NCBI RefSeq assembly: GCF_007197995.1
Contig: NZ_VKKH01000004.1
Location: 62,001-126,000, forward strand
From: Aliiglaciecola sp. M165
GTDB lineage: Bacteria; Pseudomonadota; Gammaproteobacteria; Enterobacterales; Alteromonadaceae
Length of the DNA: 64,000 bases
Direction of reading: 5' to 3'
The notes under the pieces are model-generated. The model worked only from the letters and a program-made list of their open reading frames with translations. It did no database searches and was not told where the DNA came from. Both the position numbers and the translations under genes were made by a program. Below, piece after piece: positions 1 through 46,495 of the stretch. Each line of letters begins with the position of its first letter. Within the stretch, counting starts at the first letter, position 1.

Positions 1-2577
1 CTTCCCAATGGCGTGAATCCATCAGACGGATTCCATACCTATGCGATTGAATGGCAAGAAGGCGAAATTCGTTGGTATATGGATGGTTACCTTTATGCCA
101 CACAAATGGCCTCTGAGGTGCGTTTCAATAGCAAAGATGAAGCAGTTGGCTTGATCCATAGAGGTTGGTTTGCAGAATATTTCGACATCGCTACAGGCGA
201 GCAACAAGTATTTTGGGATAGCTCACCCTTTGATCAGGATTTTCATTTAATCCTAAACTTTGCTGTTGGCGGGAGCTGGCCGGAAAACGTCAACAATTTG
301 GGTATTGATGAGTCAGCCTTCGCTGGCGGACAAGCATTCCAAATTGACTACGTTCGTGTTTACGAATGTTCTATCGATCCTGACACAGGAGCGGGTTGTG
401 AAACCGTTCGTGGTGGCTACAAAGACGAAAACACTTTGGTTGAAGGTAAAGCACCTACGCCAACGCCTCCAACGCCTGACGTAGCAGTGCCTATTACTAT
501 ATTTGACGATGCTGAAAATCCTTTGTGGAAGCTTTGGGATTGCTGTGGTGGTACAACACCTGCTGTTGTAACTGATGATGCCGAACATGGCGCAGTCGCT
601 GAGTTCCAGATACTGGATAACGCCGGCACAGTGTTAGGTTTCAATAGCCGCCCTGATGTTTCAGAAGGTGGCACACCGTTTAACGCTTCGGCGATGTTAA
701 CGACGGGTAATTTATCCTTTGAAATGAAGGTTGTGAATGCGCCGACTTCTGATACGACCTGGCTGTTAAAGGTCGAAGGGGACAACAACACCTCATTTGC
801 CGAAGTTGCCTTGAACACAAGTGTCGAAGGCGCAGATCCGGTTACTGGTCAGTGGCAAACCTATACCTTCCCTTTACAAGCGTTGAGCGATGCAGGTTTA
901 GATATCAGCGCAATTGATGTCATTATGATATTCCCAGCGTGGCAAACCGGTGAAGGCGCAATCTATCGCGTTGATAACGTAGAAATTGCCGAGCCAGGTG
1001 GCCAGGTGTTCCCTGAGTTAGTGCTGTTTGAAGACCAAGCCAATCCAGACTGGCCATTGTGGGATTGCTGTGGTGGTACAACGCCTACTGAAGAAATGGA
1101 TGATGCCGATCATGGCGTGGTTGCTGAATTTTCAATCCTAAACAATGACGGCACTGTACTTGGGTTCAAACCAGCGGATGGTTCTGGCATTAACTTTGAC
1201 GCGTCAGCACTACTTACTGATGGTGTCGTGCAGTTTGAAATGAAAGTTGTCAATGCACCAACTTCACCTGATGCAGTATGGAAGTTCAAAATTGAAGGTG
1301 ACGGTGCCACATCGGCAGTAGAAGTCGACTTGTCAACCGGTAATGGTGGTGCAGATCCTGTGACCGGAGAGTGGGCAACTTACACCTTTGCGATTTCAGA
1401 CCTTGCTGATGCGGGCTTAGATATCAGTGTGATTGATGTCTTAATGATTTTCCCTGCATGGCAAACCGGTGAAGGGGCTATCTACCGCGTGGACAACGCC
1501 AAAATCTTCAACCCGAATGCTACGAGTGGACCAACAGGTCCTCGTGAAGTGGTCTTTGCCGATGCAGAGAGCGGAAACTGGCCACTATGGGATTGTTGCG
1601 GCGGAACCACGCCAACAGTTGAAACCGATGATGCTGATCATGGTGCAGTTGCTGAGTTCCAGATCCTCAATAATGATGGGACTGTACTTGGATTTAATAG
1701 CAGACTTCCCGATGATGGCGCGCCATTTGACGCCTCAGCGTTGTTAACCACAGGAACCCTTAGCTTTGAAATGAAAGTCGTAAGTCCGCCGACTGCAGAT
1801 ACGACCTGGTTATTGAAAGTTGAAGCTGACAATAATACATCCTTCGCTGAAGTAGCACTAAATACCAGCACTGAAGGGGCTAACCCAGTGACGGGTGAGT
1901 GGCAAACTTATACCTTCCCTCTCTCAGCCTTGTCCGATGCAGGGCTAGATATCAGTGCTATTGACGTCATCATGATATTCCCTGCATGGCAGACCGGAGA
2001 AGGCGCAGTTTACCGCGTAGATAATCTGGTGATTGGAAATCCTGGTGATACGGGTCAAGCGCAAGATGGCAACTCACTTGTCACATTTTTCAAAGATGAC
2101 GCCAATGCAGAGTGGCCGCTTTGGGATTGTTGCGGCGGTACTACGCCAACAGTGGCTGCTGACGATGCAGATCACGGCGCAACAGCAGAATTCCAAATCC
2201 TTGATAACGCAGGAACAGTGCTTGGCTTCTACAGCCGGGATGCGGGTTCACCTGTAGATGCTAGTGCATACCTAACGACTGGTACCCTGACTTTCGAAAT
2301 GAAAATCGTGACGCCTCCTTCAGGAGGCGATACAAACTGGCTGCTTAAAGTTGAAGCAGACAATAACACGTCTTTTGCGGAAGTTAATTTGAACACCAGT
2401 AATGAAGGACAAGACCCCGTAGTAGGACAATGGCAAACCTATACATTCGATCTACTCGCTTTGTCTGATGCAGGCCTGGACCTTAGTGCAATTGATGTAG
2501 TGATGGTTTTCCCAGCATGGCAGACGGGCGGTGGAGCGATTTATCGTATCGACAACGCCATGATCACAACCAATTAA
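1..2577 (+). CDS. GH16-family beta-glucanase, 3' part, with four tandem C-terminal CBM-like modules
   Basis: The reading frame is open from base 1, so the gene starts outside the window; the first ATG at 13 is internal. The first ~125 residues look like the end of a GH16 jelly-roll (DGFHTYAIEW, then IRWYMDG, LILNFAVGGSWP and IDYVRVYE). The GH16 catalytic ExDxxE motif would lie upstream and cannot be checked. A Thr/Pro linker (about 450-480) leads into four homologous modules of 175-178 residues, each with a WDCCGGTTP motif (gat codons at 538, 1063, 1591, 2125) and ending in AIYRVDN-like text. They resemble galactose-binding-like, ExoP C-terminal-type domains. GH16 enzymes in this setting cut beta-1,3 or mixed-linked glucans. 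Neighbouring GH81 and GH3 genes support laminarin. Substrate is inferred. Confidence 0.82.
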   Translation, partial: LPNGVNPSDGFHTYAIEWQEGEIRWYMDGYLYATQMASEVRFNSKDEAVGLIHRGWFAEYFDIATGEQQVFWDSSPFDQDFHLILNFAVGGSWPENVNNLGIDESAFAGGQAFQIDYVRVYECSIDPDTGAGCETVRGGYKDENTLVEGKAPTPTPPTPDVAVPITIFDDAENPLWKLWDCCGGTTPAVVTDDAEHGAVAEFQILDNAGTVLGFNSRPDVSEGGTPFNASAMLTTGNLSFEMKVVNAPTSDTTWLLKVEGDNNTSFAEVALNTSVEGADPVTGQWQTYTFPLQALSDAGLDISAIDVIMIFPAWQTGEGAIYRVDNVEIAEPGGQVFPELVLFEDQANPDWPLWDCCGGTTPTEEMDDADHGVVAEFSILNNDGTVLGFKPADGSGINFDASALLTDGVVQFEMKVVNAPTSPDAVWKFKIEGDGATSAVEVDLSTGNGGADPVTGEWATYTFAISDLADAGLDISVIDVLMIFPAWQTGEGAIYRVDNAKIFNPNATSGPTGPREVVFADAESGNWPLWDCCGGTTPTVETDDADHGAVAEFQILNNDGTVLGFNSRLPDDGAPFDASALLTTGTLSFEMKVVSPPTADTTWLLKVEADNNTSFAEVALNTSTEGANPVTGEWQTYTFPLSALSDAGLDISAIDVIMIFPAWQTGEGAVYRVDNLVIGNPGDTGQAQDGNSLVTFFKDDANAEWPLWDCCGGTTPTVAADDADHGATAEFQILDNAGTVLGFYSRDAGSPVDASAYLTTGTLTFEMKIVTPPSGGDTNWLLKVEADNNTSFAEVNLNTSNEGQDPVVGQWQTYTFDLLALSDAGLDLSAIDVVMVFPAWQTGGGAIYRIDNAMITTN
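481..2574 (+). repeat. Four tandem 525-534 bp repeats encoding CBM-like modules
   Basis: Four in-frame copies start near 481, 1006, 1540 and 2071. Anchor codons for the DCCGG motif are 525, 528 and 534 bases apart. Each copy carries LTTG.L.FEMK, W.LKVE.DN.TSF.EV, QTYTF.L..LSDAGLD.SAIDV and FPAWQTG. Copy 2 is the most divergent (ATSAVEVDLSTG in place of NTSFAEVALNTS). The wobble positions differ throughout, so the copies are old duplications or are kept from homogenising. Confidence 0.85.
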
Positions 2578-2643: not shown

Positions 2644-2676
2644 AGCCACATGAAGAAAATTATAAGTAGGGTAACT

Positions 2677-5649
2677 ATGAAAGACATGAACTTCAGTAAG
2701 AAATACCTTGCCGCATCCATCTCTGTGCTTTTGGGCACAGCAGTTGTACCTCAAATTTCAGCGCAAGAGGCAGATAATGCCGATGCCGCTGGAGGGGATG
2801 TAGAAGTCATTGCTGTACGAGGGATCCGCGGCAGTTTAATGCGCGCGCAAGATTTAAAACGCGACGGACAAGGCGTTGTTGACGCTATATCCGCTGAAGA
2901 AATGGGTAAATTCCCCGATACTAACCTTGCCGAATCACTGCAACGTATTACCGGTGTCACGGTAAGCAGAAGCAACGGTGAAGGTAGTGAAATTACCGTG
3001 CGGGGATTTGGTCCAGATTTTAACTTGATTACCTTAAATGGTCGTCAAATGCCAGGAACAGGTAATACTCGTTCTTTCAAATTGGAAAACTTGTCATCGT
3101 CAGGTGTTAGCGCCTTGGAGTTATATAAAACTGGCCGTGCAGATATTCCATCCGGTGGACTAGGTGCAACGGTAAATATTGTCACAGCAAGACCTTTGGC
3201 ATCTCCTGGTTTGAAATATTCATTGTCCGCCAAAGGAATTTATGATGAGTCAAACGTTGAAGGGGATGATGTCACTCCAGAATTGTCTGCTTTGTATAGC
3301 GATACCTACGCAGACAATACTATTGGTTTGGCCATATCTTTGTCGATGCAAGATCGTGACTTCCAACAACAAAGTGCAAATATTCCAGGTTGGCAAGCCG
3401 ACCAAGGGCCATTTGGCAACGCGACTTCGGCAATAGATTTGCGTCCAGACGCAGCCAATGAAGAAGAAGACATAATGGGTGGCACGACCACTGCCGATGG
3501 TAAGGCCGGTCATACCTATTTCCCCCGCCAGATTTCATATAACATTAACAATGTTCAACGCTCTCGTTTCAACGGGCAAGCAACCTTGCAATATGCGCCT
3601 CGAGACGATATGACCTTTACTCTGGACTATGTTTATTCTGAAGCGGAAACAGCGACGTCGGGTTTAGGCTATGGCATCTGGTTTAACTTTGGCGGAAATG
3701 TGACAAGTTATGAATTGGATGAGCGCGGAACGGCCATTCGCTTTACCGAAACCGCCAATGATTTTGCGCACTCCGCCAATAGAGAAACTTTATTGGTAGA
3801 AAGTGATTCCATCGGATTTAATTTCGAATGGCAAATCACTGACGACATTCATTTTGAATTGGATTATCACGATTCAAAAACCGAGACCGACAATGGTGCT
3901 GATGATGGTACTGGACACTCTGGTAACATCATTCTCGGACCGAACAACATCGTGACTAAAACCTATGATTTTTCTGAAGGTGGCATTCCGCAATTTGTCA
4001 TGACCTGGCCAGATAACGCCGCCGAGGCAAGTCCAGCCGATTTTGATCCGTTGTTTGCTCAATTTAGCCGTGGTGTGGGCGAGTCTACCGTCGAACAACT
4101 GCAATTAGATGCCGAATGGGTTAACCCTGATGATAGCTTCCTAATGAGCGTTCGTGCTGGTATTGCCATTACCGACCAAACCTTTGGTGGAAGAAACGCC
4201 TTTAGTGGCAACCAAGGTCCCGGCGGTTACAATGGCAACCAAGCTATCTTCCCAGATAGCATGTTTGTAAGACGAGATTCAGGTGACTTCCTTGACGAAT
4301 TTTCTAATGGCGGTGCAAACCTCACTACCGATTACTACTACGCGTTTGATTATGCTGAGGCAGTTGGTAGATTGCAGTCTTTCTTTGGCTTTAATCCAGA
4401 TCCGTTTGAATCTTTTGTTACGGAAGGCCTAGCAGACTTGACCGAAGAAACACAAAGTGCCTATGTCGCAGCAGACATGTACTTCGAAATCGGAGATATG
4501 CCGGTAGATGTCAATGTGGGAGTGCGCTATGAACAGACAGACGTAATCAGTATTGTCGATCAGGATGTTGAAGACTTTGTTGTTTGGACTAACCCAACGG
4601 AGTGGCAGTTGCGCTTTAGACCAAGCGAGACCGGCAGCGTTCAGTTTACCGGCGAGCATGATTTGTACCTACCAAACTTGGATATTAAGGTAGAGGTGAC
4701 CGACGATATTATTGCCAGACTCTCTACAAGTAAAACGATTACCCGAGCACCGCTAGGAAATCTAGTTGGTGCACGTTCACTATCGCCAGCCCCTAAACCA
4801 GGTAGCAGAAATGGTGCGGCGGGGAACACCAACTTGCAACCCTTTGAATCGACTAACCTGGATTTGATCGTTGAGTACTATTACGAAGAAGCGAGTTATA
4901 TTGCACTGGGGTATTTCAGAAAAGACGTGAAAAACTTTATAAGCAACAATCAGACGCTGCTGACTTTCGAAGGTTTACGTGACCCGCTAAATGGTCCACG
5001 TGCCGCGCAAGCGACAGCTGAGCTCGTTGCTGCCGGAATCCCTGTTACTGACGGTGCAATTTGGCAGCAGTTGATTGACAGTGGCCAAGGAATCGATGAC
5101 GCCTGTTGTCAAACCCAGATCATCCGTCAGAACCCTGATGACCCACTTATTGAATGGTTGGTGAGTCGTCCTGAAAATGGTGATGACAAGACTGTAGATG
5201 GATTTGAATTCGCGATCCAGCATATGTTTGGTGAAACCGGCTTTGGTGCTGGCTTTAACTTTACAATAGTTGATGGTGACGTAGAATTTGACGTAGACAG
5301 CTTTGAAAGACAAGCACCTTTAAACGGCCTGAGTGACTCAGCCAATATTCAATTGTTCTACGAAAAAGATGGCCTTTCAGCAAAAATTACTTACGCATGG
5401 CGTGATGATTATTTGATTGGTGTTGGTCAACAGCAAGGCTCTGCTGAATCTCCGCCTCAATTCGGTAAAGAATACGCACAAACTGATATCAGTATTAACT
5501 ACGATATTACTGAAAATCTAACGGTGTTTTTTGAAGGTTTAAATATAACCAATGAAACCGAGGAAGGTTACGGACGCTACGAAGAGCAATTCTTGTTTGC
5601 TCGTCAATATGGTTCCCGTTACAACCTAGGTGCACGTTACACCTTCTAA
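2677..5649 (+). CDS. TonB-dependent receptor (oligosaccharide type)
   Basis: Outer-membrane active transporter of about 990 residues. A signal peptide (FSKKYLAASISVLLGTAVVPQISAQ) is followed by a plug with VIAVRGIRGS, VVDAISAEEMGKFPDTNLAESLQRITGV and VRGFGPDFNLITLNGR, then a long beta-barrel ending ..YNLGARYTF with a terminal Phe. This matches the TIGR01782-like receptors common in glycan loci of marine gammaproteobacteria. The ATG at 2677 is chosen over 2650 because AGGG lies at a fitting distance before it and none before 2650. It is a clear paralogue of the receptor at 40325. The context of GH16, GH81 and GH3 suggests beta-1,3-gluco-oligosaccharide import, which is inferred. Confidence 0.93.
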   Translation: MKDMNFSKKYLAASISVLLGTAVVPQISAQEADNADAAGGDVEVIAVRGIRGSLMRAQDLKRDGQGVVDAISAEEMGKFPDTNLAESLQRITGVTVSRSNGEGSEITVRGFGPDFNLITLNGRQMPGTGNTRSFKLENLSSSGVSALELYKTGRADIPSGGLGATVNIVTARPLASPGLKYSLSAKGIYDESNVEGDDVTPELSALYSDTYADNTIGLAISLSMQDRDFQQQSANIPGWQADQGPFGNATSAIDLRPDAANEEEDIMGGTTTADGKAGHTYFPRQISYNINNVQRSRFNGQATLQYAPRDDMTFTLDYVYSEAETATSGLGYGIWFNFGGNVTSYELDERGTAIRFTETANDFAHSANRETLLVESDSIGFNFEWQITDDIHFELDYHDSKTETDNGADDGTGHSGNIILGPNNIVTKTYDFSEGGIPQFVMTWPDNAAEASPADFDPLFAQFSRGVGESTVEQLQLDAEWVNPDDSFLMSVRAGIAITDQTFGGRNAFSGNQGPGGYNGNQAIFPDSMFVRRDSGDFLDEFSNGGANLTTDYYYAFDYAEAVGRLQSFFGFNPDPFESFVTEGLADLTEETQSAYVAADMYFEIGDMPVDVNVGVRYEQTDVISIVDQDVEDFVVWTNPTEWQLRFRPSETGSVQFTGEHDLYLPNLDIKVEVTDDIIARLSTSKTITRAPLGNLVGARSLSPAPKPGSRNGAAGNTNLQPFESTNLDLIVEYYYEEASYIALGYFRKDVKNFISNNQTLLTFEGLRDPLNGPRAAQATAELVAAGIPVTDGAIWQQLIDSGQGIDDACCQTQIIRQNPDDPLIEWLVSRPENGDDKTVDGFEFAIQHMFGETGFGAGFNFTIVDGDVEFDVDSFERQAPLNGLSDSANIQLFYEKDGLSAKITYAWRDDYLIGVGQQQGSAESPPQFGKEYAQTDISINYDITENLTVFFEGLNITNETEEGYGRYEEQFLFARQYGSRYNLGARYTF

Positions 5650-5664
5650 GCGAAGGTTGTTATG

Positions 5665-5692
5665 AAAAAAGCCGCTTTTTAAGCGGCTTTTT
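5665..5692 (+). terminator. Intrinsic terminator after the TonB receptor
   Basis: GCCGCTT (5671-5677) pairs with AAGCGGC (5681-5687) across a short loop, flanked by A5-6 and T5 runs, 15 bases after the stop codon. The A/T flanks extend the stem. Confidence 0.85.
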
Positions 5693-5729
5693 GATATGCT
5701 TTTTTTAATCTGTTCACTTGGAGTAAGAA

Positions 5730-7289
5730 GTGGTCGATCATCAAATTAGAAAAATTGTTATCGTCGGTGGTGGCACCGCTGGATGGCTGACAGCGGGTGT
5801 GATTGCTGCAGAACATTTAGCCAACTCTGAGCAAGGAATATCAGTAACCTTGATAGAATCGCCGGACGTGAGCCCCATAGGTGTTGGCGAAGGTACCTGG
5901 CCAACTATGCGTGGAACCTTGCGCAAAATGGGAATTAGCGAAACGGATTTTATCCGCGAATGTGACGCCTCGTTCAAACAAGGGGCAAAGTTCGCCAAAT
6001 GGGTTACAGGTGCTGAAGATGATGCCTACTATCATCCACTTGTTCTTCCTCAAGGATACGAGCAAATTAACTTAGCGCCGTTTTGGCAAGAACAAGCCGA
6101 CAAGGTTTCGTTTGCCGATGCCGTCTCATTTCAAGGGCACCTATGTGATCAGCACTTGGCCCCAAAACAAAATACCACGCCAGAATATGCCCATGTTGCA
6201 AACTATGCGTATCATCTTGACGCCGGTAAATTTTCCACATTTTTGACTAAACATTGCACCGAGAAACTTGGCGTAACTCATATCCTTGACCATGTTACCG
6301 ACATTAACAGTCACGATAACGGCGATATCCGTTCTATCAATACGAAAATGTCAGGGGAATTGGAAGCGGATCTATTCGTTGATTGCACAGGTTTCAATGC
6401 ACTATTAATCGGTAAGCATTACCAAATTCCATTTATTAACAAACGCCATATTCTCTTCAATGACACTGCACTTGCAGTGCACGTGCCCTATGAAACTGAA
6501 CAAAGCCCTATTGCGTCTCATACTATATCAACGGGGCAAAGTGCAGGCTGGATCTGGGACATTGGACTGCCCTCTCGACGCGGTGTAGGCCATGTTTTTT
6601 CTTCTGACCACACCACGGTTGAGCATGCAGAAACGGAATTGAGAGACTACATAAAGCAAAGCATTGGTGATAAAGCGGATGAATTAAAGGTTCGAAAAAT
6701 CCCCATCGTGCCTGGCCACAGGCAGGTATTTTGGCATAAAAACTGTGTTGCTGTAGGGCTATCAGCAGGGTTCCTCGAGCCGCTGGAAGCGTCAGCGTTA
6801 GTGCTTGTTGAGCTGTCGGCTGCAATGATCAGCGAGCAAATGCCCGCAACGCGCAGTGTAATGGATATTGTCGCAAAACGCTTTAACGATAAGTTCCTGT
6901 ATCGCTGGGATCGAATCATTGATTTTCTTAAACTTCACTACATTTTAACCAAGCGCACCGATACCGATTATTGGGTGGATAATTGCGATAAGAAAACGAT
7001 CCCGGAAGACCTTAGACAGCTAATGGAGCTATGGCGATATCATAGCCCTTGGCATAGCGATTTCACGCAAATTGATGAAGTATTCCCTTCTGCCAGCTAT
7101 CAATATGTGTTGTATGGAATGGGATTTAAAACCGAATCTGCTGGCACCCAAAGACGCTCATTAGATAAACAACTTGCGATGGAGAATTTTCGCAAAAACC
7201 AACAACTGACCCAAAAGCTTATAAAAGGACTGCCAACAAATCGGGCACTCATCAATAAAATACGTCAGTTTGGATTGCAGCGCATTTAA
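5730..7289 (+). CDS. Flavin-dependent tryptophan halogenase homologue (EAS/WDIG subtype)
   Basis: A 519-residue PF04820-type flavoprotein. The FAD-binding GGGTAGW motif is at residues 13-19 and the halogenase lysine appears at K83 in ASFKQG, so the chlorinating or brominating chemistry is possible. The usual WxWxIP signature reads WIWDIG, and the usual EPLEST reads EPLEAS, so the residue equivalent to the Ser next to the catalytic Glu is Ala. The start is GTG at 5730 with GGAG eight bases upstream. No flavin reductase gene is near. It is followed by SapC and Cupin_8 genes, a recurrent set near TonB receptors in these bacteria. The real substrate is unknown; free tryptophan is not implied by the name. 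Confidence 0.85.
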   Translation: MVDHQIRKIVIVGGGTAGWLTAGVIAAEHLANSEQGISVTLIESPDVSPIGVGEGTWPTMRGTLRKMGISETDFIRECDASFKQGAKFAKWVTGAEDDAYYHPLVLPQGYEQINLAPFWQEQADKVSFADAVSFQGHLCDQHLAPKQNTTPEYAHVANYAYHLDAGKFSTFLTKHCTEKLGVTHILDHVTDINSHDNGDIRSINTKMSGELEADLFVDCTGFNALLIGKHYQIPFINKRHILFNDTALAVHVPYETEQSPIASHTISTGQSAGWIWDIGLPSRRGVGHVFSSDHTTVEHAETELRDYIKQSIGDKADELKVRKIPIVPGHRQVFWHKNCVAVGLSAGFLEPLEASALVLVELSAAMISEQMPATRSVMDIVAKRFNDKFLYRWDRIIDFLKLHYILTKRTDTDYWVDNCDKKTIPEDLRQLMELWRYHSPWHSDFTQIDEVFPSASYQYVLYGMGFKTESAGTQRRSLDKQLAMENFRKNQQLTQKLIKGLPTNRALINKIRQFGLQRI

Positions 7290-7365
7290 CTCGGAAAACG
7301 AGACAATCAAACCAACAACTAGTCTAGGTGCTAGTAAGAAATACAATAACTAATCAGGACACTCT

Positions 7366-8088
7366 ATGCCAAACCATCAAGTACTCGACAATGTGACGCA
7401 CAAAGATTTAAAAATCATAACCGACATGCTTCCCAGACTCGGTGACGATGTCAGCTATGCGAATATTTTTGTATCTGAGTTCAGACAAGTACAAGGTGTT
7501 TATCCGATCTTTTTTAGAAAGAATTCAGAGTCAGGAAAATTTGAAGCCATCGCCATGTTCGGCTTTGCTGAAATGGAGAATTTGTATTTAACCGAAAAAG
7601 GCTGGCAAGGCGACTATGTGCCATTGAGTATTCAACGTCGCCCTTTCTTGATTGGTTTTCAAAATACTCAAGTTGATGGTGTACTAACTCAGGAACCTGT
7701 GGTCTTTGTTGATATGGATAGTCCACGAGTTTCTGAAGAAATTGGTGAGCCTGTATTTTTGGAACAAGGGGGGCAAAGCGATTATTTACAGCACATGACA
7801 TCGGTACTTAAGGCTGTTAACGAAGGGCACCAACTCACAGATGAATTTGTTGCAGAACTGCTTTCACAGGATTTGATTGAATCGGTTAGCATAAAAGTCA
7901 CTGTCAAAGATGGAAGTAACAACGAACTCACAGGCATTTACACAATCAACGAAGAAAAAGTGGCAGCGCTGAGCGGCGAGGATTTGCAAAATTTACATAG
8001 CAAAGGCTACTTGCAAATGATCCATATGATCGAGGCATCAATGGCCAATCTTTCTCCGTTGATAGAAAAGAAAAACGCGACCCTATAG
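7366..8088 (+). CDS. SapC family protein
   Basis: A 240-residue protein of the PF07277 (SapC) type, recognised from the pattern FVSEFRQVQGVYPIFFRK, followed by GKFEAIAMFGFAEMENLYLTEKGW and YVPLSIQRRPFLIGF. No signal peptide or membrane segment is visible. AGGA precedes the ATG by seven bases. It lies 76 bases after the halogenase homologue and 9 bases before the Cupin_8 gene, so one transcript is likely. The name comes from a Campylobacter S-layer-linked gene, but the biochemical role of the family is not known to me. Confidence 0.85.
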   Translation: MPNHQVLDNVTHKDLKIITDMLPRLGDDVSYANIFVSEFRQVQGVYPIFFRKNSESGKFEAIAMFGFAEMENLYLTEKGWQGDYVPLSIQRRPFLIGFQNTQVDGVLTQEPVVFVDMDSPRVSEEIGEPVFLEQGGQSDYLQHMTSVLKAVNEGHQLTDEFVAELLSQDLIESVSIKVTVKDGSNNELTGIYTINEEKVAALSGEDLQNLHSKGYLQMIHMIEASMANLSPLIEKKNATL

Positions 8089-8097
8089 AGATGCAAA

Positions 8098-9111
8098 GTG
8101 CTGTCATTTAGCTCGAAAAATACGATTAAAGAGATACATTCTGCCAGCGAATCAGATTTGACCTCTGAGTTATTATGTTGCAATGAACCCGCTGTTCTTA
8201 GAGGGCTTATTAAATCCTGGCCATTAGTACAAGCGGCTGAGAAAAGCGCACAGCATGCTGCAGACTATTTAACCAGTAGTGCGAATGACCGTCCCGTGCA
8301 AGCCTTCGTGGCTGGTGCTGCCGAACAAGGCCGCTTTTTTTACAACGAAACAATGGATGGCTTTAATTTCTCGCCAAAAACAACAAACTTCAAAAACGTA
8401 ATCGACGATATTTTTGCTCATGCAAATAATCCAGCTTTAGATTCAACTTATTTGGGTTCGACATCAATCAATCACATATTGCCCGAGTTTCGTTTGCACA
8501 ACGAAGTTGATCTGCTCAAAGATTCGCCCTTAGTGAGCATATGGGTAGGTACGCCTTCGCGGATCGCCGCTCACTATGACATCCCAGATAACTTGGCCTG
8601 TGTGGCTACTGGAAAAAGGCGATTTACTTTGTTTCCACCAGATCAAATAGATAATTTATATGTAGGCCCGTTAGATTTCACTCCCGCTGGACAGTCTGCC
8701 AGCATGGTCGACTTTCATAATGTTGACTACCGTCAGTTTCCGAAATTTAAAGAGGCCATTGAGCAAAGCATTATTATAGAACTAGCGCCCGGCGACGCGC
8801 TATTTATTCCTAGTATGTGGTGGCATCATGTCGAGGGCTTGGAGGACTTTAATGTTTTAGTCAACTACTGGTGGCGGCAAGTCCCCAATTTTATGGGTAC
8901 GCCACTCGATGCGTTAAATCATGGGATCTTAAGTATTCGAGATTTGCCCAAAGCACAAAGAGATATATGGCGAAACATGTTTGAGCATTACGTATTTTCG
9001 GCTCGGGAGCCAACCCATATTCCTCCTGAGCGACGGGGAAGCTTGAATCCACTGGATGAAACCCTTGCACGGCAAATCCGTGCAGCATTAATCAACAAAC
9101 TCAATCGTTAG
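8098..9111 (+). CDS. Cupin_8 / JmjC-like Fe(II)-2-oxoglutarate dioxygenase-type protein
   Basis: A 337-residue soluble protein with the cupin-like JmjC fold signature: the HxD metal pair in AAHYDIPDN, a GKRRFTLFPPDQ strand, and a distal His in GDALFIPSMWWHHVEGL. PF13621 members include protein hydroxylases such as FIH relatives, so a post-translational hydroxylase is possible; the target is unknown. The start is GTG at 8098. An ATG at 8091 is out of frame and stops after six codons. The gene closes the receptor-halogenase-SapC-cupin row and ends 39 bases before the convergent GH81 gene. Confidence 0.83.
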   Translation: MLSFSSKNTIKEIHSASESDLTSELLCCNEPAVLRGLIKSWPLVQAAEKSAQHAADYLTSSANDRPVQAFVAGAAEQGRFFYNETMDGFNFSPKTTNFKNVIDDIFAHANNPALDSTYLGSTSINHILPEFRLHNEVDLLKDSPLVSIWVGTPSRIAAHYDIPDNLACVATGKRRFTLFPPDQIDNLYVGPLDFTPAGQSASMVDFHNVDYRQFPKFKEAIEQSIIIELAPGDALFIPSMWWHHVEGLEDFNVLVNYWWRQVPNFMGTPLDALNHGILSIRDLPKAQRDIWRNMFEHYVFSAREPTHIPPERRGSLNPLDETLARQIRAALINKLNR

Positions 9112-9150: not shown

Positions 9151-12100
9151 TTATTCAATTCGAATACTCTCTACAACAATATGCAGATCTTGACCACCGT
9201 CATTTCCTTCCAGCACAAATGGATTTATTACCGAGGTTAAATCCACCTGATTTCCCGGTGATAGCGAATTACTCGCAGCACTAATATCTGAAACAGGGAT
9301 ACTGTATGACTGAAAATCCCCTCCTTCAACGGGCAGTCCACCATAATCGGACAAATTCACGTCACTTAGATTTGGCCAACCTGAATCTATTTTAACGAAC
9401 ACATCCGTATGGCTTCCTAGGCTCGCTAGCCTTAAATCAAAACGCAGAAATCCCTGTTCGTAAGCACTTAGATCAAGGACTACTGGAGCAATGAGATAAA
9501 CATTGCCTGTCATACTAAAATCAGCCTCTAACGTGCCACTATTGAGTGTAATACTGTCATTGTCTGCTTCGTTATTTCCCGGAAAGTTTCCGATGCTGTA
9601 GCCATCTTGAAGTTGATCATCTAGCAATACCAGTGGCGCTATCAACGACGCTGTTTGAAACTCTGTTGTTATAGCAATAGATTCTTGCGAACTGTCATCT
9701 AAGGCACTGATACTAATCGTGTAAGTCGTTTGTTCGGACAAGCCACTGAGGGTGGTTTCTAGACGGTTTACCGATGTCACCACTTCAAAGTTATCCGGTC
9801 CAGACAGCACGACATTGTAGCTATTTATACTGCCCTCATCCTCCGCTGCTTGCCAGCGCACTGTAGCCTGTGTTGCGGTGATATTCTCGACGGCCAAAAC
9901 ACCTTGCATTTGAGGAGGTAAATCGGCATTGAGATCGGCCGTTGTCACCTCAGCTTCAATTGAATTTGAACGGTTTCCTGCCACATCCAAGGCCGTGACA
10001 ATCACGCTATAAGCTGTGTTATCCGACAGACCTTGGACTTGGTTCGAAGTTGATGTACTCACAACAGTTTGAACCGTGACACCGTTTTGTTGAATTTGAA
10101 TTTCGTAGGATGCAACACGAACGTTGTCCGTTGCAGGGTCCCAGCCCAAATCAACGGATGTTCGCCTCACGTTAGACACCATGACGTCACCCGCAAATTC
10201 TGGCGGCAGTTGATCATCCAATTCAAGCTCTTGGGTAGTTACTCGTGTCATGACCCCTGGTTGAACAAGCAGCGATACGCCGTCTGAGAAATTGACGGTC
10301 TTTTCCTGTTCGGAAAAATTATACGACAGATAAGTGCGATTATCGTCTTTTTCAAACACCATTGAAGCCGGGTCATCTGCGGTAACATCGCCGTTTCCTG
10401 TAAGCATATTCCCCAGCTGAGTAAAGGTGTGTATCCAATGGTAGGTATGTGCTTTAGTTTCGCCGAACTCTGGCACATAATCTGCCATACTTTCATAGTC
10501 GTCTAATGCGGCTTGGGCATCATTGGTTGCCCACAAATTCCACCAAACGTCCCTCCACTGGTCTTCATCTAACCCAGAAGGTTTACCATTTTCTGATTCA
10601 GACATTCCCAACTCAATGTAGTCGCGCATATAATCTGGGTATTGACCAACGTGGAGAGTAAGGGGATTAATAGGCAGACCCTGAATTCCTAGAATATGGG
10701 CATAACGCGGACTAAACCAAGTGGAAAATACGGCACCATCGCCCCATATGATTGACGTTGTGATTTTATCGTAGGTTGAAGGAAAATTATTATACTCTTC
10801 GGGTTTACCCTGATAATGATCAATGTTGTTCCAGTACTGCCAATAAGTTGCGGCTGTAGAGGCATGCAAATAGGTGCCGCGATCTACCAAGTCTTGTTGC
10901 CCGGTTATCAATCCATAGAGCGTAATTGCTCCATAGGCGTTAGCTGCCTCAGAAGTCGATTCGTTATTGTTGCCTCTGGCAAAATTGACCATCCCCGATG
11001 CCCAAGAGAAGCCATTTGCTGGATCAAAATGGCGTAAATAAGGAAACATCTCGTCATCACGCCCACCCGCATAGTCTCTAATCAGTAATTCAATCATAGG
11101 GCCATATTGTGCTTCGGAGCACCACGCCAAATCGACTCGACATATTTCAGCGGCTGCGCGGACAAAGTATCCATAATGAAAATGGTGATCGTTAAGCATT
11201 TGATGGGATAAAAAGGACTCACTGACCCCTAATAACGTATCCCAATCTTCATCATAAACAAAGTACTTGTCTTCATCGAAAGTATCGCCAGTTGCAGCGG
11301 TAAACCAATCTGCAAGCTCGAGTTTAAGCCAATTAATGAATACGTCGGCTTGTTGATCAAGCCCAGCAGATCGCGCAATTGCCGCTAGCTCGGCAACTTT
11401 TGAATAAGCTTTACCCGACCAATAGGTGTCTGTAAAGGTATTCCAATTGTCTTGACCTTGTGCGATAAAGTCATTGACAAGTTGCGTCAACACTGCCCTA
11501 TCTATGCTACCGTCGATGGTTGGCAAAAATGGGAGTACTCCCACGGAAGGTATTTGATAGGAAAAGTCTTGACCTGGTAAAAATTTAACGGTTCCTCTGG
11601 CACTGCGCACACTTTGTGTTGAAATAATGTCACCTGCATTTTTCCAATGCAGAGGATGCAGTCCCATCATTGTGTCTAAAGGCTCACCAGACTGATCGAG
11701 ATAATGATGAGTAATGTTAACGGCTTGCGACTCGCTCTCGATTTGGTAGGTAATGTCGACCTTACTGACCACATTTCTGGCGTAAAGTTTGAATTCATCT
11801 ACCGTACCTTGAGTTGGCGTGTCTAAGTTCGACGGTGGCAACAATGCTAGGGTGAATTCGTTAGTCTGCGAATTGATAGTGATGCTGTTGGATGTCGCAC
11901 CGCTAAAAGTTGTTCCTTCATCACCAATTAATAAATAAGTGTTTTTATTCCCAGCGACCCTTGTCCACAGCCCTAAACTATTATCGCCTGTTGAAAACGT
12001 TCCTTTCTCGCCACCATCTTCTCTTAATGTTTTGATTACAAAGTCACCCTCATAGGTTTTAAAAAACACATAGGGCGAACCATGCAAAAATGTGGCTTCC

Positions 12101-12828
12101 ATTACAGGGTTACCTGAGGCCTGCCATTCAATGGTCATTGAACCATCGCTACTTTCTTTCAAATAACCTTCTAAATTGAAATGCATTGAATTTGCAACAG
12201 CAATTCCATCAAACACTTCTGCAAAAGGGTCCGGGATCGGATATTGGAAATTTATCTCATCCATTGATTGCAAACCGCTAGGAATACCCATAACGCGAAC
12301 ACCTGATTGGCTGATTCTGGCGATAATAGGGTCAGGCGTAATGTATGCAGCGCTGTCAGGGTCCTGGAGTGTCATCTCTCCCAAAAACGATACTGAACCC
12401 CACCAACGATGAGACGCAAAGGGTTTTTCAGCGGCTGGCCCAGTGACTTGTGGGAAACGTTTGGTGATAGTGCCTACAGGTTTGTTATCCGTTGTGCATC
12501 CACTGACGCCTGGTTGAACTACGCCTGCGTTATAAACCCAGAAACCATAGTCCTCGGTACACCGATAACCTTCTTCATTGAACTTATCTACCACATTGCC
12601 CGCACCAAAGTTTGTCACCTTAGCAGATTCGCCCACAGGTGGAGGTGGCGGCGGCGGTGGCGGTGGCGGCGGTGGCGGCGGTGGCGGTGGCGGCGGTGGT
12701 GGTGGTGGCGGCTCGGGTACGGCAGGGGGTGCAACCGATGGACCTTCTTGAGTAGAATTTGAGCCTGAACCACAGGCAGTCAGAAATGCCAGACAAACAC
12801 TAGATGCAATGATTGATCTCGTTTTCAT
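9151..12828 (-). CDS. GH81 endo-beta-1,3-glucanase, lipoprotein with polyproline linker, two FN3 and a C-terminal CBM-like domain
   Basis: A 1,225-residue surface-type lipoprotein: signal peptide and lipobox LTAC, then an unusually long run of about 27 prolines, then the GH81 catalytic part. GH81 hallmarks are FPQVTGPA..FASHRWWGS, LNDHHFHYGYF (Asp 547), FSWASGMVNFARGNNNES and the Glu pair E623/E627 in NNESTSEAANAY. GH81 enzymes cleave laminarin internally with inversion. Two fibronectin-III domains follow (about 873-1062), then a domain of about 160 residues resembling the repeated modules of the GH16 protein at 1-2577. It is transcribed away from the GH3 pair, with which it shares a 500-base divergent region. 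Confidence 0.93.
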   Translation of the reverse strand: MKTRSIIASSVCLAFLTACGSGSNSTQEGPSVAPPAVPEPPPPPPPPPPPPPPPPPPPPPPPPPVGESAKVTNFGAGNVVDKFNEEGYRCTEDYGFWVYNAGVVQPGVSGCTTDNKPVGTITKRFPQVTGPAAEKPFASHRWWGSVSFLGEMTLQDPDSAAYITPDPIIARISQSGVRVMGIPSGLQSMDEINFQYPIPDPFAEVFDGIAVANSMHFNLEGYLKESSDGSMTIEWQASGNPVMEATFLHGSPYVFFKTYEGDFVIKTLREDGGEKGTFSTGDNSLGLWTRVAGNKNTYLLIGDEGTTFSGATSNSITINSQTNEFTLALLPPSNLDTPTQGTVDEFKLYARNVVSKVDITYQIESESQAVNITHHYLDQSGEPLDTMMGLHPLHWKNAGDIISTQSVRSARGTVKFLPGQDFSYQIPSVGVLPFLPTIDGSIDRAVLTQLVNDFIAQGQDNWNTFTDTYWSGKAYSKVAELAAIARSAGLDQQADVFINWLKLELADWFTAATGDTFDEDKYFVYDEDWDTLLGVSESFLSHQMLNDHHFHYGYFVRAAAEICRVDLAWCSEAQYGPMIELLIRDYAGGRDDEMFPYLRHFDPANGFSWASGMVNFARGNNNESTSEAANAYGAITLYGLITGQQDLVDRGTYLHASTAATYWQYWNNIDHYQGKPEEYNNFPSTYDKITTSIIWGDGAVFSTWFSPRYAHILGIQGLPINPLTLHVGQYPDYMRDYIELGMSESENGKPSGLDEDQWRDVWWNLWATNDAQAALDDYESMADYVPEFGETKAHTYHWIHTFTQLGNMLTGNGDVTADDPASMVFEKDDNRTYLSYNFSEQEKTVNFSDGVSLLVQPGVMTRVTTQELELDDQLPPEFAGDVMVSNVRRTSVDLGWDPATDNVRVASYEIQIQQNGVTVQTVVSTSTSNQVQGLSDNTAYSVIVTALDVAGNRSNSIEAEVTTADLNADLPPQMQGVLAVENITATQATVRWQAAEDEGSINSYNVVLSGPDNFEVVTSVNRLETTLSGLSEQTTYTISISALDDSSQESIAITTEFQTASLIAPLVLLDDQLQDGYSIGNFPGNNEADNDSITLNSGTLEADFSMTGNVYLIAPVVLDLSAYEQGFLRFDLRLASLGSHTDVFVKIDSGWPNLSDVNLSDYGGLPVEGGDFQSYSIPVSDISAASNSLSPGNQVDLTSVINPFVLEGNDGGQDLHIVVESIRIE
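12638..12712 (-). repeat. In-frame GGN trinucleotide tract encoding the polyproline linker
   Basis: About 25 successive ggc/ggt/gga triplets on the + strand read as CCN proline codons of the GH81 gene. The tract mixes ggc and ggt irregularly, but short identical sub-units (ggcggcggt) recur. Changes in copy number would alter linker length without a frameshift. Confidence 0.85.
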
Positions 12829-40324: not shown

Positions 40325-43300
40325 ATGGGCTTATACATGAAAGCTAAACAGACTAATTTTAAACACACCTTAATCGCGAGAAGCGTGTCGGTTATTCTTG
40401 GTGTGGGTACTGCATTTCCGCTTCTTGCACAAGATGCAGATGATGTTGAAGTAATCCAGGTCACTGGTATCCGTGGAAGTGTTCAAGAATCCATGAACAT
40501 AAAACGAGAATCATCGGGCGTCGTTGATGCCATTTCTGCAGAGGATATTGGTAAATTCCCAGACACTAATCTGGCTGAATCTTTACAACGTATTACCGGT
40601 ATTTCAATCTCAAGAAATAATGGTGAAGGTAATCAGGTTACCGCGCGTGGGTTTGGTCCTGACTTCAATATGGTGACGTTGAATGGTCGGACAATGCCGG
40701 GGTCTGCGCTACCTGCCGGTGGCGGGGCGGCTAATTCCCGAGCATTCGACTTCTCCGATCTCGCATCAGAGGGTGTGCGTGCGGTAGAAGTGTATAAAAC
40801 CGGCAGAGCAAGTATTGCCACGGGTGGTATTGGTGCTTCAATCAACATTCGTACTGCGCGTCCTTTTGACGCTGTTGAATCGGGTTTTTCAGCTACCGTT
40901 GGTATCAAGGCACTTCACGATACAACCAACCGTGTAGGTGATGATGTCACCCCTGAAGTTTCGACGTTTGTTAATTGGACTGATGAAGACGAACGTTTTG
41001 GTGTTTCACTTTCTGCAAGTTTCCAAGACCGTGACAGTGCTGCCGTGGGCGCATTCGTTAACCAGTGGCGGGTCAATCCTTTTGACGGCACTGTGCCGCA
41101 ATCACCCGATCCAAACAACCCTGCCAGTGGTGCCCCCGTTGTGTTAAATAATGCTCCGGCTATGGGGCAGCTTTTCGCAATACCGTCTGATTTACGCTAC
41201 TTTATCGCTGACCGAGAGCGTGAAAGAACAAACGCACAGTTGACAGTGCAATTTGCACCGAGTGACGACATTGTTGCAACTTTAGATTACACCTATTCTA
41301 AACAAGACTTATTTGAAGCCAGAGCGGAACAGTCGATTTGGATGGATGATCGCTATTTTGCTGAACTGACGTTTGATAATGAAACGGTCAAAACCCCTAT
41401 TGGCATTCGCCAAGAACGTCGCGACTTATTACCGCGAGACTTAGGGTTAGCCGTTCAAGAGTTGAACCAGGTTAATGAAAACAAATCTATTGGTCTAAAT
41501 GTTGAGTACAATGTCACCGATGATCTGTTCTTGGCATTTGATTTCCACCGTTCTTCAGCTGATGGTCTTCCCGATGCGCCCTATGGTACTTGGACCAACC
41601 TTGGTTTAGGGGCAAATGTTGTGCGAGGTCAAGGTGTTGACTTTAGCGGCGAATTCCCAATCATGTTAGTTGATTTTGATGACGAAGCTCGTGGGAACTT
41701 GAATCCAAATGGAGTTCTGGATCAGGACGATGTCGGCACATCGATTTTGGACATGCAGTTTAGTTCCCAAGAAACCGACGTAACTCAAGCCCGCATTGAT
41801 GGTCAGTACATGTTTGATGACGGAAGTATTAATTTTGGTATTGAGTCACGTGCAATGGAAAGCACATCCATGCAGTCGCTTACTCGGCATACAATGGGTA
41901 ACTGGGGTATCGAGAACCCTGGTGAATTGCCTGCTGGTATCCTCTCTCCCATCAGCCTCGCTGAAGAATTTAATGACTACAATACCAGTGGTATCTTTAG
42001 TCAAGGTTTCACTGGCAATGTCGCCGAACTGGGTGCATTTGCTTCGCAAGCATATGGTTTTGATTTTGTAGCAAACAATCCATTTGCAACTAATCGAACA
42101 ATAGAAGAAGACATCACTGCACTTTATTTTGAATTTGATATTAGTGGCGAGCTTAACGGCATGCCTTACGACGTTCTTGCTGGTGTCAGATACGAAGATA
42201 CTGAAACAACGTCTATTGCCAACATTAGCTTACCAAGTGGTGTTGCATGGGAAGGCAACAACGATTTTAACGTGCGTTTCGGAAGTGCCATGGAAGATGT
42301 GAGCGTGACGTCCTCTTACGACCATGTTCTGCCTGCTTTAGATTTTAACCTTGAAGTTGCTGAAGGCATGATGGCGAGGTTCTCATACAGTAAAACGATA
42401 GCCAGACCCACCTATAACAACCTCAGTGCAGCAGCAACAGTGAGTCCTCCAAGCGGCCCTACGTTGATCACCGGAGAGGCAACCGCAACAGCTAGTTCGG
42501 GTAACCCATCGCTTGTGCCACTAGAGTCTGACAACTTGGATTTGTCCTTTGAATACTATTTCGATGAAACAAGCTACGTGTCTGTCGGCTTCTATGACAA
42601 ACGTGTGCGCAACTTCATTGGTAACGAACAGGTTGAAGAAAGCGTATTCGGATTACGTGATGCCACCGCTGGTCCTCGTGCTCAAGCAGCGCAAGCCGAA
42701 TTGGAGCGCTTGGGCATTCCACTAAGTGATACCACGCTATTCAATATGGTTGCGGCTATGGAAAATGGTATTGATTACTTCTCTCTTAGTGATGAGCAGT
42801 TTGAAGCACAATTCGATGTATTGCCTAACGATAGCGACCCTTTGCTAACATTTATTAACGCTAAACCCGTTAATAACAAAAGTGCCAATATCTATGGGTT
42901 CGAATTAGCTGCGCAACATTTCTTCGGAGACAGTGGTTTCGGCGTCCATGCTAACTACACAACCGTAAACGGCGATGTAGGCTTTGATAATAACGCCGAC
43001 CCGTCTGTTACACAGTTTGCACTAGTTGGTTTGAGTGATACGGCAAACTTGATTTTGATGTACGAAAAAGATGCCATTCAAGCGCGGATTGCCTATAACT
43101 GGCGCGACAACTTCCTCGACAACGCAACACAATATGTCAACGAACCGGGTTATACGGAGTCCTTGTCGCAAATAGATTTCAACATTTCTTACGAAATCAA
43201 CGACACAATGACGGTGTTCCTTGAAGGGATCAATATCACTGAAGAGAACAGTCGTCGACATGGTCGAACGTCTGCTCAACTATGGCGCTTGGAACAATTA

Positions 43301-43339
43301 GGTGCCCGCTACGCTCTGGGTATTAGGGCCTCGTTTTAA
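40325..43339 (+). CDS. TonB-dependent receptor (oligosaccharide type), LacI-controlled
   Basis: About 1,004 residues (or 1,000 if the ATG at 40337 is used, which begins directly with the basic signal-peptide end). The signal peptide ends ..GVGTAFPLLAQ. Plug motifs are nearly those of the receptor at 2677: VIQVTGIRGSVQES, VVDAISAEDIGKFPDTNLAESLQRITGISISRNNGEGNQVTARGFGPDFNMVTLNGR. The barrel ends LGIRASF. The two receptors are paralogues serving separate loci. Context (GH94, gluconokinase, GH1) suggests a short beta-glucoside or its oxidised form as ligand; this is inferred. Confidence 0.93.
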   Translation: MGLYMKAKQTNFKHTLIARSVSVILGVGTAFPLLAQDADDVEVIQVTGIRGSVQESMNIKRESSGVVDAISAEDIGKFPDTNLAESLQRITGISISRNNGEGNQVTARGFGPDFNMVTLNGRTMPGSALPAGGGAANSRAFDFSDLASEGVRAVEVYKTGRASIATGGIGASINIRTARPFDAVESGFSATVGIKALHDTTNRVGDDVTPEVSTFVNWTDEDERFGVSLSASFQDRDSAAVGAFVNQWRVNPFDGTVPQSPDPNNPASGAPVVLNNAPAMGQLFAIPSDLRYFIADRERERTNAQLTVQFAPSDDIVATLDYTYSKQDLFEARAEQSIWMDDRYFAELTFDNETVKTPIGIRQERRDLLPRDLGLAVQELNQVNENKSIGLNVEYNVTDDLFLAFDFHRSSADGLPDAPYGTWTNLGLGANVVRGQGVDFSGEFPIMLVDFDDEARGNLNPNGVLDQDDVGTSILDMQFSSQETDVTQARIDGQYMFDDGSINFGIESRAMESTSMQSLTRHTMGNWGIENPGELPAGILSPISLAEEFNDYNTSGIFSQGFTGNVAELGAFASQAYGFDFVANNPFATNRTIEEDITALYFEFDISGELNGMPYDVLAGVRYEDTETTSIANISLPSGVAWEGNNDFNVRFGSAMEDVSVTSSYDHVLPALDFNLEVAEGMMARFSYSKTIARPTYNNLSAAATVSPPSGPTLITGEATATASSGNPSLVPLESDNLDLSFEYYFDETSYVSVGFYDKRVRNFIGNEQVEESVFGLRDATAGPRAQAAQAELERLGIPLSDTTLFNMVAAMENGIDYFSLSDEQFEAQFDVLPNDSDPLLTFINAKPVNNKSANIYGFELAAQHFFGDSGFGVHANYTTVNGDVGFDNNADPSVTQFALVGLSDTANLILMYEKDAIQARIAYNWRDNFLDNATQYVNEPGYTESLSQIDFNISYEINDTMTVFLEGINITEENSRRHGRTSAQLWRLEQLGARYALGIRASF

Positions 43340-43372
43340 GCCACTGTTTCTGTGAAAGTCGTGTGTGTGAGT

Positions 43373-43388
43373 CTGCCAAGGATGGCAG
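43373..43388 (+). promoter_or_regulatory. CsrA-site-like hairpin in the leader of the second halogenase homologue
   Basis: CTGCCA pairs with TGGCAG and exposes AGGA in the loop, giving CCAAGGATGG, 60 bases before the ATG at 43449. An ARGGAUG in a hairpin loop is the known CsrA/RsmA binding form. The site could equally be a short processing hairpin. Confidence 0.4.
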
Positions 43389-43448
43389 CTTCCCTTAGGG
43401 ATCGACACAGGCTATTCTGAAGTTAATAATCACAACCAGTAACTGTAA

Positions 43449-44999: not shown

Positions 45000-45001
45000 A
45001 A

Positions 45002-46495
45002 ATGAATACGACTTATCAAAATTCTGTCAAACGGGTGATTATCGCAGGGGGCGGCACTGCAGGTTGGATGACCGCAGCCGCCCTATCAAAGTTAATTGGC
45101 AAATCACTTGATATTACCTTGGTGGAATCAGACCAAATTGCCACCATAGGTGTGGGTGAAGCGACCATCCCACCTATCCGCACCTTTCATCGATTGTTAG
45201 GCATCGACGAACGAGACTTTATGCGCGCCACACAAGCGACCTTCAAATTAGGCATTCAATTTGAAAATTGGCGCACCGCAAATGACGTATACATTCACTC
45301 ATTTGGTGTAACGGGCAGAGAGTGTTGGGCCGGTGAATTCCATCATTTTTGGCTAAAAGCGCAACAGCTTGGTATTGCCGAAGCGTTTGGCGATTATTGC
45401 TTTGAGCTTAAAGCGGCACAGCAACAGAAATTTGGCTTCAACGAGCAGAACCCTATCAACTTTGCCTATCATTTAGATGCTATTGGCTATGCAAAATTCT
45501 TACGTGTGTTCGCTGAAAAGCATGGCGTAAAACGGGTTGAAGGTAAAATCGACAAGGTGAGCGTAGATCAGGCAACTGGATTTATCTCTAGTTTGAGTTT
45601 AGACAAAGGTAAAACGCTCACCGCTGACTTGTTTATCGATTGCACCGGATTTAGAGGCTTGTTAATTGAGCAAGCACTGCATTCTGGGTACGAAGATTGG
45701 TCGCACTATATGTTGTGCGACAGTGCCGTGGCAATGCAAACTTCACCCACAGAGGCGCCATTGCCGTACACGCGCTCAATCGCTCATGATTCGGGCTGGC
45801 GGTGGCAAATTCCACTGCAAAACCGGGTCGGAAATGGCATGGTGTATTCCAGTTCTCACCTGTCAAAAGAACAAGCGGAACAACGTCTACGTGAAAATGT
45901 CACCGGAGAGCCGCTCAATCAGCCCAATCATATTCGTTTTCGTCCTGGAAAACGTAAGCAACCTTGGAAGAAAAACTGTATTGCAATTGGTTTATCTTCG
46001 GGATTCATTGAACCCCTTGAATCAACCAGTATTCACCTTATCATGACATCTATTGTCAGGCTCATGCGGCTATTTCCATTTGACGGTGTAACTCAGAGTG
46101 CAACCGACGAATACAATCGCAAACTTGGCTGCGAAATGGACTGTATTCTCGACTTCATCACAATGCACTACAAAGTGACTCAGCGAGATGACAGCGAATT
46201 CTGGCGCTACTGTAAGCAGATGGATGTACCTGATTCTTTGGCGCACAAACTCCAGTTGTTTGAAGACACTGGACGCGTGTTTCTGGATGAATTTGACATA
46301 TTTAGAGTCGACTCCTGGACCCAAGTGATGTTAGGCCAGGGCCTAGTGCCTAAACAGTTTCATCGTATCGTAGATGAAATGGACCAAGCTGAATTGTCGC
46401 GTTTCATGGCAACCATCAAAAACGATGTGGACAAACGCTTAACTTCACTACCCAGTCACACCGAATTCTTATCTCATTACTTAAAACAACAATAA
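45002..46495 (+). CDS. Flavin-dependent tryptophan halogenase homologue (canonical WxWxIP type)
   Basis: 497 residues. AGGGGGCGGTACTGC-type coding for GGGTAGW is followed by the lysine K82 in ATFKLG, WRWQIPL (the intact WxWxIP signature) and SSGFIEPLESTSIHLI with the intact Glu-Ser. The C-terminus, SWTQVMLGQGL..LPSHTEFLSHY, is typical. The ATG at 45002 directly follows the stop of the preceding gene; a longer frame from 44954 overlaps it and adds nothing recognisable. It differs in subtype from its neighbour, so the pair is not a simple tandem duplication. Confidence 0.88.
   Translation: MNTTYQNSVKRVIIAGGGTAGWMTAAALSKLIGKSLDITLVESDQIATIGVGEATIPPIRTFHRLLGIDERDFMRATQATFKLGIQFENWRTANDVYIHSFGVTGRECWAGEFHHFWLKAQQLGIAEAFGDYCFELKAAQQQKFGFNEQNPINFAYHLDAIGYAKFLRVFAEKHGVKRVEGKIDKVSVDQATGFISSLSLDKGKTLTADLFIDCTGFRGLLIEQALHSGYEDWSHYMLCDSAVAMQTSPTEAPLPYTRSIAHDSGWRWQIPLQNRVGNGMVYSSSHLSKEQAEQRLRENVTGEPLNQPNHIRFRPGKRKQPWKKNCIAIGLSSGFIEPLESTSIHLIMTSIVRLMRLFPFDGVTQSATDEYNRKLGCEMDCILDFITMHYKVTQRDDSEFWRYCKQMDVPDSLAHKLQLFEDTGRVFLDEFDIFRVDSWTQVMLGQGLVPKQFHRIVDEMDQAELSRFMATIKNDVDKRLTSLPSHTEFLSHYLKQQ

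Follow-up and report, generated by a model that had tools for sequence, protein, structure and literature searches.

A recurring receptor-linked group of halogenase-like, SapC and Cupin_8 genes around Aliiglaciecola sp. M165, possibly a receptor-accessory oxidative module

Why should genes for two putative oxidative enzymes and for a SapC family protein stand directly behind a TonB-dependent receptor gene, amid genes for the use of a polysaccharide? The question is raised by a stretch of 64,000 nucleotides of Aliiglaciecola sp. M165 (contig NZ_VKKH01000004.1, positions 62,001 to 126,000; hereafter the window), in which a receptor of the TIGR01782 subfamily is followed by a PF04820 flavoprotein related to flavin-dependent halogenases (FDH), a SapC protein and a Cupin_8 protein (Table 1). 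The original prediction had described these four co-directional genes, and all were present on the same strand with family scores far above cut-off (597.5 bits in TIGR01782 against a cut-off of 310 for the receptor). Its receptor start at position 2677 turned out to be an internal ATG of a reading frame that opens at 2650. The genes are separated by 80 (receptor-FDH), 76 (FDH-SapC) and 9 bases (SapC-Cupin_8), which leaves little space for a precursor-peptide or assembly-line gene, although no search was aimed at small open reading frames. We tentatively consider this group as a possible receptor-accessory oxidative module that would modify its cognate receptor, or an exported partner, before export.

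The order found in the window, GH16-receptor-FDH-SapC-Cupin_8, was identical in Glaciecola sp. KUL10 (L018 in our map of loci) and related arrangements recurred in many genomes; the gene order is thus not a product of chance. In seven genomes, 48 of the 51 PF04820 genes were located within 6.5 kb behind a TIGR01782 receptor gene of the same strand, when an even spread would give 0.47. As these genomes were this one and six others picked among the SapC-bearing genomes of the order, the figure may not hold order-wide; three receptor matches that had been split were joined for this count, and one receptor scoring below the cut-off was left out. Among 118 genomes sampled from the order, 30 had SapC (62 copies in all); at the level of the phylum it was detected in 139 of 397 genomes. 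All four families also had matches in Caulobacter vibrioides, which served as a control genome. Thirty-eight of the 62 copies had an FDH gene on the same strand within 4 kb, among which 35 also had a receptor, 14 of these with Cupin_8; the other 24 of the 62 had no such partner. The phylum set consisted of 51 SapC loci, hand-picked in 50 of the 139 genomes that carry SapC, mostly as best-scoring copies of different families and some for their long open frames; this set leans to standalone SapC. In 41 loci no module partner lay on the SapC strand at a distance of up to 4 kb and 10 had one, 8 of them secure, as the FDH labels of L174 and L176 correspond to matches of 254 bits without a WxWxI motif.

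Modules were also carried by plasmids. In Sphingobium sp. RAC03 the order was receptor-SapC-Cupin_8-FDH-GH16-LacI-MFS-GH3, and Catenovulum adriaticum presented receptor-FDH-SapC beside an agarase gene. Sphingomonas parapaucimobilis, isolated from cabbage, had one plasmid module beside type VI secretion system (T6SS) and arsenate genes, another with GH43 and GH115, where SapC and cupin run opposite to FDH and receptor, and another with GH95 and no cupin. Viral contigs scanned for FDH and for SapC gave no relatives. Thus, the idea of a conserved system was borne out: the module is real and widespread, and the co-occurrence beyond this genome, which the original prediction had made its test, was observed among the PF04820 genes, among the SapC copies (38/62) and on sphingomonad plasmids. 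No account of the module was found among the papers listed in searches of the open literature; as subscription papers were mostly outside this search, an earlier mention is possible.

The FDH proteins were sorted into two classes, FDHA and FDHB, by the nearer of two window proteins, which is a crude rule, and the mapped loci outside this genome were gathered through SapC, which biases the counts of gene pairings. The commonest form of the module was receptor-FDHA-SapC (13 loci) and the longest was receptor-FDHA-SapC-Cupin_8-FDHB-DUF6445 (4 loci). The Cupin_8 gene was followed by FDHB in 17 of 20 runs, and in one more (L146) by an FDH gene with WQWRIP; in the window and in KUL10 no FDHB comes after it. 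This genome encodes 13 PF04820 proteins, 4 SapC, 1 DUF6445, Cupin_8 matches in 3 proteins (1 weak) and 12 TIGR01782 receptors above the cut-off. Twelve of the 13 PF04820 genes were within receptor-led runs, and 8 of the 12 receptors were followed by such a gene at no more than 1.5 kb. Judged by motif, FDHA (WIWDIG) accounted for 4 of the 13, while 8 carried WxWxIP and 1 had no WxWxI motif; SapC was in the same run as 3 of the 4 FDHA-motif genes and as none of the 9 others, a comparison for which the genes were chosen regardless of SapC.

The PF04820 loci of this genome contain glycoside hydrolase genes of families GH16/81/3, GH94, GH31, GH20 or GH13, or an SSF symporter gene with DAO. What they share is therefore the receptor and not the glycan, and the constant partner of the module is the receptor. 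This bears on a first alternative, that the module processes aromatics bound to glycans (ferulate, phlorotannin or similar), which we regard as improbable. Eleven of 17 cupin-type loci elsewhere hold GH16, GH81, GH3, GH10 or the sugar-type transporter MFS_2 and 6 showed none of these (each locus was tested on one or two of its proteins, and L066 and L103 were not included), and the sphingomonad locus with GH43 and GH115 would suit such a substrate. However, PF04820 genes also stand behind receptors in GH20, GH13, GH31 and SSF/DAO loci, chitin and starch carry no aromatic group, and the cupin module beside T6SS and arsenate genes has no annotated glycosidase within 9 kb in an annotation table that is incomplete. 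The phenolic attached to an algal glycan, one of the three targets proposed at first, is thus not supported, as PF04820 genes follow the receptor class over several glycan contexts and are also found on the plasmids of the cabbage Sphingomonas.

The receptors appear to have diverged together with FDHA and SapC. In a quick tree, all 20 cupin-module receptors were placed in one 22-row clade (SH-aLRT 96), and the SapC proteins of cupin modules formed a less firmly supported 22-row clade (94/75) nested in a well-supported 30-row clade (99/97). Receptor distances were correlated with those of FDHA (0.69), FDHB (0.77) and SapC (0.70). Among paralogues of the same genome, the correlation was 0.67 for receptor and FDHA (8 of 1000 shuffles as high, 25 pairs) and 0.65 for receptor and SapC (0 of 1000, 23 pairs); without the split into FDHA and FDHB, receptor and FDH gave 0.30 overall and 0.53 within genomes. 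Since receptors keep their own diverged FDH and SapC copies, the target should be receptor-specific: one FDH per receptor, which tracks the receptor and is indifferent to the glycan, favours such a target.

A second alternative is that the module acts on a small aromatic common to these loci (an indole or phenol signal, an inducer or a toxic by-product) that would be made or taken up upon expression of the receptor, which is conceivable, if somewhat unlikely. Free small substrates are usual for characterized members of the halogenase fold, and the FDHB protein of the second receptor locus of the window had Xcc4156 (6y1w, 1e-176), 9luq and BrvH (6frl) as nearest structures. BrvH is reported to brominate free indole in vitro (PMC5945002), and enzymes of the BrvH/Xcc4156 group to act on indole derivatives (PMC7336383). 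Against this, a shared substrate needs no diverged FDH for each receptor, here 13 PF04820 genes, tracking receptor divergence, and no natural-product assembly gene was seen among the Pfam-scanned neighbours, a minority of all neighbours.

Could these FDH proteins be halogenases at all? The GxGxxG FAD site was kept in the aligned FDH sequences (Gly13 and Gly15 in 74/74, Gly18 in 73/74), as were the catalytic-type Lys83 (74/74) and Glu353 (73/74). The window FDHA (5730-7289) reads WIWDIG at the WxWxIP motif; the proline position was occupied by G, A or S in 43/43 FDHA and by P in 27/31 FDHB. The name of halogenase is thus too strong for the window gene: the catalytic Lys is retained, but the proline of the motif is missing and halogenation by the window FDHA is unproven. 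A third alternative builds on this substitution and on the weak similarity to other flavoprotein families: having ceased to be halogenases, the proteins would serve as flavoproteins with a regulatory or chaperone role, which signal the FADH2/O2 state and set receptor production. We consider it unlikely, because the retention of Lys83 and Glu353 points to chemistry and most FDHB keep WxWxIP.

BrvH and Xcc4156 resemble the module FDH proteins by the same Pfam family, the same Lys and the same WxWxI core. Upstream of brvH another halogenase gene is reported, with 42.7% identity (PMC5945002), comparable with the FDHA-FDHB succession described here, and the K83A variant of BrvH is inactive (PMC5945002). 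In favour of the reading preferred below, BrvH, which is related to FDHB, is reported not to turn over tryptophan, to be slow on indole and to have no known natural substrate (PMC5945002; PMC7336383), a status shared by Xcc4156. They differ from the window module, whose gene is an FDHA with WIWDIG in place of WxWxIP, closest to 2pyx, then to 9ltb and 9lu2; a search of the open literature by structure code gave two papers that name 2PYX and none for 9LTB, 9LU2 or 9LUQ. Also, the text of the BrvH paper contains none of the words TonB, SapC and cupin, and that of the Xcc4156 paper does not contain TonB. Halogenases of this type are thus active in vitro with an unknown natural substrate, and our survey points to a receptor-linked context for them, which turns an open substrate question into a mass-spectrometry test on purifiable proteins.

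The Cupin_8 proteins keep residues of catalytic type. The HxD...H iron triad (His159, Asp161, His243) was present in 22/22 sequences, and so was Arg174, at the position aligned to the 2-oxoglutarate Lys of FIH, a difference from FIH. The best PDB match was FIH (E 1.7e-21), with JMJD5 also among the best, the likeness extending across the Cupin_8 region. FIH and JMJD5 are protein hydroxylases, and these matches therefore support a protein target. DUF6445 (PF20043), named by Pfam in one locus and recognized by similarity in the others, stood in L064, L065, L066, L078, L026, L102, L104 and L158; in L026, a module of this genome, it replaces Cupin_8. Its His132 and Asp134 were conserved in 10/10 rows, and His224 and Arg242 in 9/10, 3 of the 10 rows being one gene of this genome. 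Because of this conserved HxD...H...R pattern, presumably that of 2-oxoglutarate oxygenases, DUF6445 is probably another 2-oxoglutarate/Fe oxygenase; it had no PDB relative. SapC kept Asn72, Pro86, Pro93 and Ser225 in 114/114 sequences, Glu38 in 112/114 and His12 in 111/114. The near-invariant His, Glu, Asn and Ser would suit either an enzymatic or a binding function. A 42-sequence profile of SapC searched against PDB found no credible relative (best E 5.2); the present survey gives this family a recurring gene context.

Gene order, recurrence, correlated divergence of receptor, FDHA and SapC, and conserved residues of catalytic type are thus what was observed. A TIGR01782 receptor gene is followed by the genes of the cytoplasmic-looking FDHA and SapC, to which one receptor clade adds FIH-like Cupin_8 and FDHB, the latter with the full halogenase motif; DUF6445 is sometimes added or takes the place of Cupin_8. 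As FDHA, SapC and Cupin_8 have no evident signal sequence at the N-terminus, as judged by eye, they probably act in the cytoplasm. There, on the reading that we tentatively prefer, aromatic or other side chains of the cognate receptor, or of an exported partner, would be altered before Sec export, by the FDH proteins with FADH2, O2 and halide and by the oxygenases with iron, 2-oxoglutarate and O2, while SapC may bind or present the unfolded substrate. The target would be specific to each receptor, and aromatic residues around the sugar site are one example of what it could be. QhpG and LodB, which as flavoproteins mature other proteins, belong to the same flavoprotein superfamily and set a precedent for a protein substrate, and the weak resemblance of the FDH proteins to them supports a protein target. 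It is doubtful, at this stage, that covalent halogenation or hydroxylation by FDHA, FDHB and the 2-oxoglutarate oxygenases, guided by SapC, tunes outer-membrane sugar receptors before export at receptor-specific positions of the sugar site; if true, BrvH and Xcc4156 would halogenate proteins, and the assays made of them would have lacked the real substrate. Of the targets first proposed, protein modification is the one that we prefer, without proof.

Several observations weigh against this preference. FDH scores were far under cut-off for QhpG and LodB (39 and 24 bits against 240 and 400), and TYW5, which acts on tRNA, was also among the PDB matches of Cupin_8. Fifty-five of the 86 TIGR01782 receptors of the seven genomes had no FDH gene within 1.5 kb downstream (31 had one). 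The receptor-Cupin_8 distance correlation was 0.24, which is not clear (66 of 1000 shuffles as high), the within-genome correlation of receptor and FDHB (0.38) was not significant (504 of 1000 shuffles as high, 12 pairs), and copying of whole operons would yield the same distance correlation. AlphaFold gave no usable model of SapC (three sequences, pLDDT 52.7), and the link of SapC with exported giant proteins, considered below, rests on few of 64 standalone copies. A column-by-column comparison between receptors followed by FDH or SapC (51) and receptors without them (38) revealed no residue that was conserved with the module and rare without it, the largest difference being Ser96 (0.88 vs 0.39). 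A fixed modification site was thus rejected and, if the receptor is the target, the site does not occupy a single constant column of the alignment. Nor were module receptors enriched in aromatic residues (Trp 1.38 vs 1.39%; Tyr less abundant in module receptors, p 0.016).

In the same comparison, module receptors had more Asn and less Lys (p about 0.0005 each); these composition tests, that of Tyr included, are uncorrected, and kinship among the receptors confounds them. A comparison restricted to cupin-module receptors gave many matches and was set aside, since those receptors form one clade.

SapC was also frequent outside modules, 64 of 115 mapped copies being standalone, i.e., with no module partner. 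An open reading frame of at least 1500 aa was found within 4 kb of 10 of the 64 standalone copies and of 3 of the 51 module copies, 2 of those 3 being the doubtful L174 and L176. In these two loci, long open reading frames with distant PF04820 similarity (L174:12324-15140, L176:1865-4243) lie near a SapC gene adjoining a giant of about 2570-2590 aa. In L145, L153, L154 and L157, standalone SapC shares its strand with a ShlB/FhaC-like gene and with a giant of 2070-2107 aa; the Pfam run covered one ShlB/FhaC (L154), which was confirmed. In L168, a giant with RTX repeats adjoins standalone SapC. Giants or large neighbours of SapC in L161, L062 and L165 had no Pfam match. Though small in number, these cases hint that SapC may deal more widely with exported proteins of large size.

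The terminator placed by the original prediction at 5665-5692 corresponds to a hairpin at 5666-5692, the longest stem in its scan, the whole scan giving 13 sites compared with 11.2 in shuffles. Hairpins were present in 33 of 46 gaps between receptor and FDH or SapC, against a mean of 3.1 over 60 shuffles, and in 1 of the 3 named plasmid modules scanned. Within 160 bases after the receptor, they were found in 14 of 17 cases with the module and in 23 of 33 without it. A conserved attenuator as a hallmark of the module was thus rejected, the same hairpins occurring after receptors that have none.

The surroundings of the module (Table 1) fit beta-1,3-glucan as a substrate, with GH16 upstream, GH81 convergent and GH3. 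A carbohydrate utilization (CUT) locus joins a TonB-dependent receptor, glycosidases and a sugar transporter, and the receptor of the window likewise stands beside glycosidases that suit one glycan. What differs is the addition of FDH, SapC and oxygenase genes; none of the words halogenase, SapC and cupin appears in the text of Blanvillain 2007 (PMC1790865). The second receptor locus continues to 50200 with MFS_2 transporter and GH94 genes downstream, and a LacI-type regulator is at 38930.

Table 1. Coordinates of the module genes and of neighbouring features in the window.
Feature	Position	Strand	Remarks
GH16 protein, glycan context	13..2577	+	reading frame runs to the left edge of the window
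TonB-dependent receptor, TIGR01782 subfamily	2650..5649	+	999 aa; N-terminal signal-like sequence read by eye
Terminator-like hairpin, receptor/module gap	5666..5692	+	12 pairs, 5 G-C, T tail
PF04820 halogenase-like flavoprotein, class FDHA	5730..7289	+	519 aa; PF04820 387.7 bits
SapC family protein (PF07277)	7366..8088	+	240 aa; 221.6 bits, gathering cut-off 28.9
Cupin_8 (PF13621) / JmjC-like 2-oxoglutarate oxygenase homologue, FIH-like	8098..9111	+	337 aa; 240.9 bits
GH81 family protein, glycan context	9151..12828	-	convergent with module
GH3 protein	13245-15566		profile match
GH3-like protein	15559-17421		judged from its sequence, no profile scan
Second receptor locus of the same kind	40325..46495	+	TIGR01782 receptor, FDHA 43449-44999, FDHB 44954-46495

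Elsewhere in this genome, a lone FDH gene without receptor was found in a GH97 locus. One neighbour protein each of L024 and L026 was scanned with Pfam and had no match. In L024:6816-11620 (G000:C24:125935-130511, starting at window position 63935), three tandem PF04820 genes stand behind one TIGR01782 receptor gene, the middle one without a WxWxI motif. Among the mapped loci, a GH20 operon (L087) carries receptor-FDHA-SapC. In L025:7105-13649, a receptor gene and FDHA are followed by genes for a DAO-type oxidoreductase and an SSF symporter with a SapC gene on either side, a context in which the substrate may not be a glycan. The window also encodes a CA_like family protein (PF10563, delta carbonic anhydrase) at 20037-20897 and, at 29956-36660, a tandem pair of proteins (about 1090 aa each) in which Sortilin/Vps10 and BNR repeats occur.

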